Of a stretch of 64,000 nucleotides of DNA, positions 55,992-58,543 are shown piece by piece (position 1 is the first letter of the stretch; every line of letters begins with the position of its first letter). A program made the position numbers and the translations under genes. The notes below the pieces were generated by a model. The model was not told the DNA's origin, made no database searches, and was given only the letters and a program-made list of their open reading frames with translations. The stretch lies in the NCBI RefSeq assembly GCF_002909235.1, contig NZ_PHQQ01000001.1, forward strand, positions 62,001 to 126,000, written 5' to 3'. This DNA is from Arenibacter catalasegens (GTDB taxonomy: Bacteria; Bacteroidota; Bacteroidia; Flavobacteriales; Flavobacteriaceae).

Positions 55992-56320
55992 CAAAATTGG
56001 AATTTGGTTACTTTAAAAATATAACTCAATAAGAACCAAGCAAAGATTCCAGTTTTCAGCTACTCATAAAATTATTCTTTTTAGGATATGGTTAAAAACT
56101 CAACTTGACATCGGATATCCTTTAAGGGCTACAAGCTGTTAAATAGAGCATATACTCAGTCCTAAAAAAGCAAGAATTCGATTGATTAAAATCGCTAAAC
56201 AACAAAAGCAGCTACTTTAGCATACTAAAAAGACTCCTTTACAACTATTAGTTTTATACAGTTTAAAAAAATACAATCTTTGGAGACCCAAAACTTACCA
56301 AACTAAACCAAATCAATGCT

Positions 56321-56350
56321 AAAAACCCCGACCAAATGGCCGGGGTTTTT
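56321..56350. terminator. Orphan bidirectional terminator
   Basis: Arms AAAAACCCCGACC and GGCCGGGGTTTTT around AAAT, with one mismatch, then GTTTTT on the plus strand; the minus strand also ends in T residues. No annotated gene ends here. Confidence 0.85.
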
Positions 56351-56377
56351 GTTTTTAAACTTTCCCTACAGCTATCA

Positions 56378-56392
56378 ATCCTAGATTAGGAT
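56378..56392. repeat. TCCTA/TAGGA palindrome 1
   Basis: ATCCTA, GAT, TAGGAT: a perfect 6+3+6 inverted repeat, 28 bases right of the orphan terminator. Confidence 0.7.
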
Positions 56393-56490
56393 AAATTATT
56401 CTATTTATAGGTAGTCAACTATATTAAATTAGTGATACTTGAATAATTCATATGCCCATTTAAAAATTCAACCTTTATCCAAATATTCTT

Positions 56491-56504
56491 TCCTATTAAT
56501 AGGA
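56491..56504. repeat. TCCTA/TAGGA palindrome 2
   Basis: TCCTATTAATAGGA: a perfect 14-bp palindrome without spacer, followed by a further half-site TTAGGA. Confidence 0.7.
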
Positions 56505-56518
56505 TTTAGGATTATACA

Positions 56519-56536
56519 TATCCTAGACTTAGGATA
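56519..56536. repeat. TCCTA/TAGGA palindrome 3
   Basis: TATCCTA, GACT, TAGGATA: a perfect 7+4+7 inverted repeat, nearly the same as palindrome 1. Confidence 0.7.
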
Positions 56537-56633
56537 AAAAAAGTTAAAGCACAGATTGGTCGGACAATTAAATTTAAGAACACAACTATTTTTCCTGAGA
56601 ACCAATGTAGACCCGCAAATATCCTCCAAAAAA

Positions 56634-56661
56634 AAAGTGCTTGAAAAAATTCAAGCACTTT
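56634..56661 (-). terminator. Intrinsic terminator of yidC
   Basis: A perfect 12-bp stem (AAAGTGCTTGAA with TTCAAGCACTTT) with a 4-base loop and a T-tract on the minus strand, 25 bases after the yidC stop. Confidence 0.92.
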
Positions 56662-56686
56662 AATTATTCGGAAGGCAAGTTTTGAT

Positions 56687-58543
56687 TTATTTTTTACCTA
56701 TTTTTTTTTGTTCCTCTGCCTGTTCCATCATCTCCCTCATCTTCTTCTGAAACTTGTTTTCCTTTTTAGGCTTTTTCTTATTCTCTTGGATCTGAGCATG
56801 GATCTTGTCCTCGTCCAATATAAATTTCTTAATGGCCAACATAATAAAAATGGTAATCAAGTTAGATACAAAATAGTATAAACTAAGTCCACTGGCATAG
56901 TTATTAAAGAAAACCAACATCATTAAAGGAGACAAGTACATGATAAATTTCATATTTGGCATACCTGGCTGCGTCTGCATATTTTGACCAGTGGTCATCA
57001 TCATATAAAAGAAAATGGCGACGGACGCTAAGATGGGAAACAAACTAACATGATCTCCATAAAATGGAATATTAAATGGCAATTGTGCGATAGCATCATA
57101 GGAAGAAAGGTCATCTGCCCATAAGAACGGTTTTTGCCTTAATGCAAAGGAAGTCGGAAAAAACATAAACAAGGCATAGAAAATTGGCATCTGCAGCACT
57201 GCAGGCACACAACCACTCATGGGGCTAACGCCAGCCTTGTTATACAATTTCATGGTTTCCTGTTGCTTTTTCATAGCATTGTCCTTAAACTTCTCGTTAA
57301 GCTCAGTAATTTCAGGCTTCAACACCTTCATTTTGGCTTGGGACAAATAGGACTTGTAGGTTGCAGGTGACATTATTAACCTTACCAAAATAGTCATGAC
57401 CACAATTGCAATTCCGAAAGGCAAGAATGAACTTAGGAAAGTGTATACTGGAGTAAATATGTACCTATTGATCCATCCAAAAATCCCCCAACCAAAAGGA
57501 ATGGAATCATCCAGACCTAATTCCTTGTATTGCGCTAAAACCTTGACATCTGTTGGGCCGTAGTACCAATTAAAATTATAGGCCAACTCCCCACCTTCCA
57601 ATTTCAAAGGCACTTCTGAGGCAAACTCCTTGGTAAATTGTTGGGTATGACTTTCCTCTTCAACCAAATTAATGGAGTTCAACTTGGCAGTTTCAAATTT
57701 ATTGGCATAGGTAAGAATAGAACTAAAGAAATGTTGTCTGTAGGATATCCATTTTATATCTACTTCCGTTTCCTCATCTTCACTACCTTCTGAAAGCTTA
57801 CTAATTTTATCATCCTCGTGATTGTAAGTAACCCTAGTATATCTATTTTCATACTGAATACTTTTGGAGTGTCGAATTGTCTTCAATTTCCAATCCAAAT
57901 CAACAGGCTTAGAACTATTAAGTATTCCGTTTAAACCTTGGGAGCGCACTGTAAAACCAATTAGGTATTGATTGGGTTTCACTTCATATCTATACTCCAA
58001 GAATTTATCCGAGGCCACTTTTGCCTTCATGGAAAGCACCTGATTTTCCCCAGATTTCGTAAGTGACGGCTCAAAATAAAGGTCATTCGTATTTAGAACG
58101 CGATTGTCCGAAGTGCTAAAATTAAGTGCAAAATTGGCATTGCCATCCTTAATTAGATAAACCGGAACAGAATCATAAGTAACATAACCCTTCATTCTTG
58201 CCTCAACAATCTGACCTCCTTTGTTGCTTATTTCCAAATAAACCACATCATTTTCCAAAACTGTAGTCCCTTCGGTAGGAGCTGTATAGCCAAATGCGCC
58301 AATTGCACTTTTATAACTTGCAACAGCCGTTGAATCTTGCAGATCGATAGCCTTGGGTTGAGTAACTTCTTGTTTAACCGCATTGGCCTTTTGCATTTCT
58401 GCAGCCTCTACCTGTTCTTGTTTCGCTTTCTGCGCTTCCAGCTCTTCTGGTGTTGGCTGGTTCTGCCAAAACATAAAAATAAGAATACCAAAAATCAGTA
58501 CAAAGCCGATTATGGTATTAATATCCAATTTCTTTTCCTCCAT
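56687..58543 (-). CDS. yidC: Membrane protein insertase YidC
   Basis: A 618-residue inner-membrane protein that inserts and folds other membrane proteins. An N-terminal helix (about 8-25) is followed by the large periplasmic domain (about 60-340) and the conserved C-terminal module of five helices with YKSYLSQAKMKVLKPEI and AVLQMPIFYALFMFFPTSF. The tail is very Lys-rich, as in species where YidC binds ribosomes. It lies 121 bases after pyrG on the same strand and probably shares its transcript. Confidence 0.96.
   Translation of the reverse strand: MEEKKLDINTIIGFVLIFGILIFMFWQNQPTPEELEAQKAKQEQVEAAEMQKANAVKQEVTQPKAIDLQDSTAVASYKSAIGAFGYTAPTEGTTVLENDVVYLEISNKGGQIVEARMKGYVTYDSVPVYLIKDGNANFALNFSTSDNRVLNTNDLYFEPSLTKSGENQVLSMKAKVASDKFLEYRYEVKPNQYLIGFTVRSQGLNGILNSSKPVDLDWKLKTIRHSKSIQYENRYTRVTYNHEDDKISKLSEGSEDEETEVDIKWISYRQHFFSSILTYANKFETAKLNSINLVEEESHTQQFTKEFASEVPLKLEGGELAYNFNWYYGPTDVKVLAQYKELGLDDSIPFGWGIFGWINRYIFTPVYTFLSSFLPFGIAIVVMTILVRLIMSPATYKSYLSQAKMKVLKPEITELNEKFKDNAMKKQQETMKLYNKAGVSPMSGCVPAVLQMPIFYALFMFFPTSFALRQKPFLWADDLSSYDAIAQLPFNIPFYGDHVSLFPILASVAIFFYMMMTTGQNMQTQPGMPNMKFIMYLSPLMMLVFFNNYASGLSLYYFVSNLITIFIMLAIKKFILDEDKIHAQIQENKKKPKKENKFQKKMREMMEQAEEQKKIGKK

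Follow-up and report, generated by a model that had tools for sequence, protein, structure and literature searches.

A predicted small RNA gene between mnmA and yidC

The window analysed here, a stretch of 64,000 nucleotides from Arenibacter catalasegens, contains a gap flanked on the left by mnmA and on the right by yidC, both on the minus strand (names from the first-pass annotation and the open reading frames). The sequence of this gap points to a conserved small RNA gene on the plus strand, designated Y, covering window positions 56199-56356, with its promoter region at 56199-56282 and an RNA at approximately 56287-56356. The promoter region begins with a distal box, ACAACA (consensus ACAnCA; 56199-56204, +), which lies around position -88 relative to the predicted start and was identified from its conservation in alignments of 78 copies. 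A middle box, TTAGCATACTAAAA (consensus TTAGCATACAAAA; 56217-56230, +; approximately -70 to -57), was delimited from conservation blocks, and a proximal box, CTTTACAACT (consensus CTTKACAACT), occupies 56237-56246 (+; approximately -50 to -41). The ACAAC core of the proximal box precedes the -7 box by 34 nt, the same distance as in another RNA, Z, described below. A TTT triplet at 56252-56254 (+) is conserved at an almost constant distance from the -7 box, and its position suggests a role as -33 element. The -7 element itself, AATCTTTG (consensus CATMTTTG; 56275-56282, +), is a variant of the sigma-A box TAnnTTTG and was found without any imposed pattern in 17 aligned sequences. In Flavobacterium psychrophilum, the TAnnTTTG element sits at -12 to -5 (PMC9723704); the fit of the box in Y therefore places the predicted start of the RNA near the CCC of the seed, at 56287, give or take about 3 bases. 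Overall, the Y promoter appears to be of the flavobacterial sigma-A type, with three upstream boxes at a 21-bp pitch that look more like activator sites than like a repressor palindrome.

The predicted transcript (56287-56356, +) is about 70 nt long and folds on its own with a predicted energy of -17.4 kcal/mol. Its 5′ body, CCCAAAACTTACCAAACTAAACC (family consensus CCCAAATCTTACCAAACTAAACC; 56287-56309, +), is complementary to a second RNA, X, considered below. It is followed by an intrinsic terminator (56321-56356, +) consisting of a T tract preceded by a GC stem that contains a single A.C mismatch. The first-pass annotation had noticed a strong terminator serving no annotated gene and had proposed a small RNA of 150-250 bases next to it. 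The terminator is real, and a small RNA gene does appear to end there, with a predicted RNA of about 70 nt instead. A simple terminator scan reported only the terminator of yidC (56634-56661, -), probably missing that of Y because of the A.C mismatch. Since yidC has this terminator of its own, it does not rely on that of Y in this genome.

By sequence, Y has the makings of a trans-encoded small RNA gene: promoter blocks, a short predicted transcript, an intrinsic terminator and conservation that is independent of the flanking genes. It falls below the gathering cut-off of every family in a scan against Rfam 15 (best hit His_leader, 34 versus 49 bits), in keeping with the earlier remark that no likeness to tmRNA, SRP RNA or RNase P RNA could be seen. 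The covariance model of 6S-Flavo (RF01685) has no match in the window, its match in this genome being on another contig (C67, 95.6 bits). A phage origin of the gap was rejected, as blastn found no match among phage records. An apparent stem in the upstream region (AAAGGAGCC..GGCTCCTTT) was also discarded as an RNA structure, being hairpin-like, by eye, in two genomes only. RNAalifold predicted no pairs in 73 Y sequences, from an alignment so rough at the terminator that the terminator stem was hidden too.

Conservation and genomic setting of Y

When the gap was used as a blastn query, matches were obtained in 18 of 40 genomes, its own included; the match in one of them (G030) covers the terminator only. 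Y was found in this way in 15 of the 17 other Arenibacter genomes and was unmatched in two (G004 and G010). The strongest matches span approximately 56163 to 56365, ending at the "orphan" terminator, and further pieces correspond to the mnmA side and to the yidC end with its terminator. A pattern-free alignment of the 17 sequences found by blastn contains a succession of fixed blocks (AC.nCA, TTAGCATAC, ACAACT, TTT, ATnTTT, CCCAAAnnTTAnCAnA, the linker and the terminator). The terminator sequence varies by species while its stem and T run are kept in place, and four Arenibacter genomes (L017, L018, L020 and L021) carry a quite different hairpin at the same position.

A pattern scan of 84,980 species genomes identified 96 stretches with the Y pattern, 77 of the 80 listed being judged true. 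The listed stretches hold 82 matches; those in TMED6, Desulfonauticus and Planctomycetaceae were judged to be chance and left out, and a copy at a locus edge (L062) was omitted from later counts. The genera represented among the listed matches are Arenibacter, Maribacter, Zobellia, Pseudozobellia, Cellulophaga, Muricauda/Allomuricauda, Eudoraea, Pricia, Ulvibacterium, Muriicola and Kriegella. Kriegella aquimaris (L121:3010-3433) has three tandem copies about 200 bp apart beside yidC. Across 78 copies, the upstream boxes keep an almost constant distance from the seed and the sequence between the boxes is free, as in promoter DNA; one-base shifts occur in a few copies, e.g., L059, L094, L106 and L111. 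In these 78 copies the -7 box and most of the seed were fixed by the search pattern and the upstream boxes were not, so that counts of seed conservation on them are biased by the pattern. Alignments A3 and A4 comprise, respectively, 72 and 54 of the 78 copies plus the window, near-duplicates having been dropped by hand.

In 69 of 79 copies, yidC is the first or second gene to the right; the immediate left neighbour is, in 51 of 79, a gene from a fasciclin cluster (one member of which was scanned with Pfam). In the main Arenibacter group mnmA takes the place of the fasciclin gene, and Y is still present. Two genomes (G005 and G003) have an extra gene between Y and yidC, assigned to DUF6515 by Pfam in the G005 copy and absent from the genome of the window. 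Part of the window gap (56357-56690) may be a remnant of the neighbourhood of this DUF6515-type gene.

We also built a sequence model (R1) of the 110-nt core of Y from the pattern-scan copies and searched it in 249 Flavobacteriaceae genomes. Matches at E ≤ 0.01 were obtained in 96 genomes; Y was counted only in the 41 that match at E ≤ 1.8e-11, because the next best match reaches just 2.3e-5.

Palindromes downstream of the Y terminator

The starting point of the first-pass annotation was a group of three TCCTA/TAGGA palindromes in the yidC-mnmA gap, thought to bind a dimeric repressor that controls the small RNA. All three are where they had been placed: TCCTAGATTAGGA at 56379-56391, TCCTATTAATAGGA at 56491-56504 and TCCTAGACTTAGGA at 56521-56534, none being assigned to a strand. 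The 64-kb window has no other TCCTA-N2-6-TAGGA site, and the three cluster within 156 bases. As the repressor model might expect, this is an over-representation: three sites against a mean of 0.44 in shuffled versions of the window, only one of 100 shuffles reaching three, clustering not counted. Genome-wide, the stricter ATCCTA-N3-5-TAGGAT pattern occurs at five places, two of them in this gap, compared with three for the reversed control pattern (the sequence of two of the three other sites, L003 and L004, was viewed briefly).

The palindromes lie 3′ of the Y terminator and are not part of the conserved block. In 16 relatives retaining Y, no TCCTA-N2-6-TAGGA site occurs between -300 and +1400 bases of the conserved seed. 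By blastn the region is unmatched in relatives, except for one stretch of 75% identity in G005, and this alignable stretch contains no palindrome. Hence, of the conservation expected from the earlier model, the RNA gene has it and the palindromes do not. Being downstream of the terminator and absent from the 16 relatives, the palindromes are probably not the operator of Y, nor have we counted them as part of the RNA gene; as an operator they were rejected. Control of the small RNA by a repressor bound at these sites is thus very improbable.

A multicopy family of predicted small RNAs, X, in Flavobacteriaceae

In the weak tail of the R1 search, one kind of match recurred, spanning model positions 57-108. 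Thirteen of these places were opened; 12 carried the same conserved element, X, and one was chance. Read on the opposite strand, X has the anatomy of a small RNA: a sigma-A box, ACCATAGCATAAGTAGGTTAAGTTCATGGTAAGATTTGGGG and a terminator of variable sequence. Its predicted structure comprises a 5′ hairpin and a single-stranded linker; the body is very conserved, and X as a whole is nearly invariant. X is multicopy, with one to seven copies per genome arranged in tandem; the genome of the window has four, two on contig C28 and two on C56. A match is found in all 18 Arenibacter genomes and, with a covariance model of X (R2, whose E-values are rough), in 202 of 249 Flavobacteriaceae genomes, representing 192 of 235 genera. 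In an order-wide draw of 196 genomes, all 26 with an X match belong to Flavobacteriaceae.

X loci have a characteristic setting. Among 53 loci, most of them belonging to the clade having Y and some sharing a genome, sodA and/or purF lies within the locus in 49; both genes are present in 27, with one to five copies of X. In the window's genome the copies are split into sodA-side and purF-side loci (G000:C28:39748-40044 and G000:C56:26200-26508), and the same is seen in G009 and G015. The copies fall into three promoter types, of which types A and B have TTTCATCGA- or TTTCAAC-like words about 21 bp apart; ATCGATGAAATGCA-like words also occur upstream of several copies of Z.

Rfam scans of X (five of the 13 weak-tail loci, a piece of L219, and L251) gave scores that were all below cut-off; with FopS (RF04319) the score was 19.8 bits against a gathering cut-off of 56. 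A search for X targets used the 15-mer CCCAAATCTTACCAT, allowing two mismatches. Among the matches listed, these exceed a reversed control in 18 of 18 Arenibacter genomes, in counts that include X, X′, Y and Z and against a reversed pattern that is an imperfect control. At none of the 20 places viewed was a convincing conserved mRNA start seen; instead they yielded Z and a repeated element, X′.

X′ consists of GCGCCCTA, an inverted repeat, AGGATCC and GCGC, and ends like the 3′ half of X (GTTAAGTTATGGTAAGATTTGGG). The arms of its inverted repeat change together between copies. It was seen at L221:1900-2010 and in L262, L263, L264, L270, L276, L277 and L281, each time near base 900 of the strand read in these last seven; in L281 a gene encoding a Phage_int_SAM_5 domain ends 61 bases before it. 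X′ has no match in Rfam and may represent an attachment site, or the end, of a mobile element.

Y is complementary to X

Reverse-complemented, nearly all of the X body resembles the body of Y; the correspondence is briefly interrupted at the AUG of the X complement. Duplexes between Y and X of the same genome have predicted energies from -29.5 to -47.9 kcal/mol in 21 genomes (out of 25 with a recognised Y seed, from 30 Y loci in the 41 strong-match genomes). Five divergent or displaced Y copies, paired with X of their own genome (two) or with the consensus X (three), give -28.1 to -36.4 kcal/mol. Dinucleotide-shuffled Y sequences reach about -13 to -18 kcal/mol, and none of 200 shuffles was as good as the real duplex for any of the 26 Y sequences. 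In the genome of the window, from a pairing analysis covering 13 genomes, the predicted duplex is more stable by about 23 kcal/mol than the two RNAs folded separately; there, one seed position is mismatched, and in its 3′ half the Y body pairs with X in patches only.

In the tail of Y, outside the search pattern, the mean longest exact match to antisense X is 6.5 nt, compared with a mean of 4.3 nt and a maximum of 4.64 in 200 rounds of letter shuffling, kinship among sequences not being corrected for. In the predicted duplex, the single-stranded linker of X lies opposite the invariant part of the Y body, and the loop of the predicted X hairpin opposite a second region of Y. Of 30 model-found Y loci, 27 keep complementarity to X at 12 or more of the 13 seed positions, and the three other copies differ at two. 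Four genomes (L169, L177, L181 and L185) have TTTCC instead of TTACC in the seed. In G196, one of the four and the one where X was read, X is unchanged, and the mismatch is therefore uncompensated. Since X is nearly invariant, the complementarity is hardly open to a test by covariation.

All this could also be the trace of an old inverted duplication of an X copy, with present-day Y working on other targets. Y does look like the reverse complement of a whole X body interrupted at the AUG, as an inverted copy would, and in the window's genome the pairing is only partly left. This origin would not lead one to expect that the invariant stretch of Y, in the 17 pattern-free sequences, is the very part complementary to the X linker, nor that Z, at a separate locus, has nearly the same seed; moreover Y and X, if both are made, can hardly avoid pairing. 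We regard this explanation as improbable.

X is present in 41 of 41 strong-Y genomes versus 161 of 208 others, a comparison uncorrected for kinship. The latter figure also indicates that X does not need Y. The two Arenibacter genomes in which blastn found no Y, G004 and G010, nevertheless have X.

Z, a second predicted X-complementary RNA, and a candidate regulator

Following the X-complementary 15-mers in Arenibacter led to a third RNA, Z, composed of CCCAAATCTTATCATT and a terminator. Its seed, CCCAAATCTTATCA, departs from that of Y by one C-to-T change, which still permits a G-U pair with X and is also present in some Y copies. An exact 14-mer search gave 30 hits in 29 of 249 genomes, with seven for the control, the hits being a mixture of Y variants, Z and chance. 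Z lies at G000:C29:181 in the window's genome, close to the contig end. The Z:X duplex has a predicted energy of about -23, versus -9 for shuffles, none of 200 being as good. Rfam scans of three Z loci gave nothing above cut-off.

Two ACAACA boxes 21 bp apart precede Z in 11 of 13 aligned sequences, the distal box being altered in G010 and G004. A -7 box was recognised in 10 of the 11, and there the nearer ACAACA stands 34 nt from it, equalling the distance of ACAACT in Y. One further locus (L302), which has the Z seed and a hairpin and lacks the ACAACA boxes, was excluded from the Z count. Outside Arenibacter, Z has on its left, by eye, a gene resembling a LytTR-domain response regulator in five of six loci, and Pfam identified LytTR and Response_reg domains in the one of these five that was scanned; on its right is a gene resembling a TPR protein. 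In Arenibacter, where seen, the left neighbour is an HTH-S24 regulator, not a LytTR gene.

LytTR proteins are described as binding direct repeats about 12 bp apart, of low sequence conservation, just upstream of promoters (PMC6193735). The layout of the Z promoter fits the LytTR repeat pitch (~21 bp), and Y has three boxes at this pitch that are less alike. Together with the LytTR gene that mostly adjoins Z outside Arenibacter, this sharing of pitch is the likeness to the promoters of PMC6193735; the difference is in the repeat itself, CACAACA being, by eye, unlike the ACCNCTTAT-like sites listed there, and LytTR binding is putative here. The upstream boxes of Y probably bind an activator, for which a LytTR-type response regulator would be the most likely candidate.

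Discussion

As computed, Y and Z have long, specific complementarity to another small RNA, X, one of the properties expected of an RNA sponge. The explanation that best accommodates the data, and that we consider likely, is that Y is a trans-acting sponge titrating the X siblings from an activator-type promoter, and that Z is another. The Y gene, with its predicted sigma-A promoter and putative upstream activator boxes, would give rise to an RNA having a largely unstructured 5′ body and a terminator. Once made, this RNA would pair with X at two places, the loop of the 5′ hairpin and the single-stranded linker (CCCAAAUCUUACC with GGUAAGAUUUGGG), thereby withdrawing X from its mRNA targets. Z, whose seed is almost that of Y and whose promoter has equal spacing, would act on X likewise. 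The model builds on computed conservation, synteny, promoter and terminator anatomy, complementarity and co-occurrence, from which we infer transcription, pairing in cells, sponge function, the regulator and the direction of control.

The direction of control could be the reverse, Y and Z being regulators of mRNAs with GGUAAGAUUUGGG-like sites and the X siblings being sponges that buffer them. Pairing is symmetrical, Y and Z have conserved upstream boxes as regulated small RNAs often do, and X is multicopy, as a buffer might be. Against this, X is far more widespread than Y (202 versus 41 of 249 genomes), for which reason it probably acts without Y; its body is very conserved, and a 5′ hairpin is predicted for it; and the analogous case of CrfA and SisA-D runs the opposite way (PMC12559287). 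Such a reversal of roles therefore seems unlikely to us, if less so than the duplication discussed above.

The case just cited is that of Caulobacter crescentus, in which the small RNA CrfA pairs with the sibling small RNAs SisA-D, of the alphaR8 family, and inactivates them (PMC12559287). Like Y, CrfA is a trans-encoded small RNA matched to several conserved siblings, and an economical reading is that Y and Z would act on the X siblings as CrfA does on SisA-D. The phylum and the sequences are different, and the Caulobacter RNAs are Hfq-associated. Further differences are that the siblings here are in tandem, that the predicted antisense match covers nearly the whole sibling body, and that there is a second candidate sponge, Z, sharing the seed and the promoter layout. 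QrrX of Vibrio, described in the same source as a sponge against the multicopy Qrr siblings, is a likeness by description, also from another phylum.

X, and not Y, can be compared with FopS of Bacteroides (RF04319; PMC11697453), which are multicopy short RNAs from the same phylum with a conserved 5′ part and a terminator. X differs from them in its predicted 5′ hairpin, its tandem copies near sodA/purF and its antisense partner, as well as in its low score with the FopS model. Closer in taxonomy are the Rfp small RNAs of F. psychrophilum, from the same bacterial family, whose -7 box TAnnTTTG fits X and Z and, loosely, Y (PMC9723704). A term search of the main text of that study found no purF, superoxide or yidC. 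It may be that a flavobacterial RNA-seq study already includes X as an unnamed transcript, for example among Rfp1-89. None of X, Y and Z scored as a known family in the Rfam scans made, and the literature passages searched contain no description of Y, X or Z.

More tentatively, and with somewhat less than even confidence, we propose that these elements belong to a family-wide RNA circuit. X would be encoded in tandem near sodA/purF and, in one clade, be opposed by two unlinked sponges, Y at yidC and Z beside a LytTR gene, which share a seed and a LytTR-type promoter layout; a single two-component signal would then switch the X regulon by titration.

Flavobacteriaceae are a large family that includes many marine polysaccharide degraders. 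To our knowledge, few of their regulatory RNAs have known partners. Being present in 192 of 235 genera, with no Rfam family in the scans made, X is apparently a core RNA of the family that is unlisted there, and Y and Z are its probable antagonists, pointing to a signal. If the model is correct, it would add to Bacteroidota a circuit opposing sponges to sibling RNAs, beside those of Caulobacter and Vibrio.
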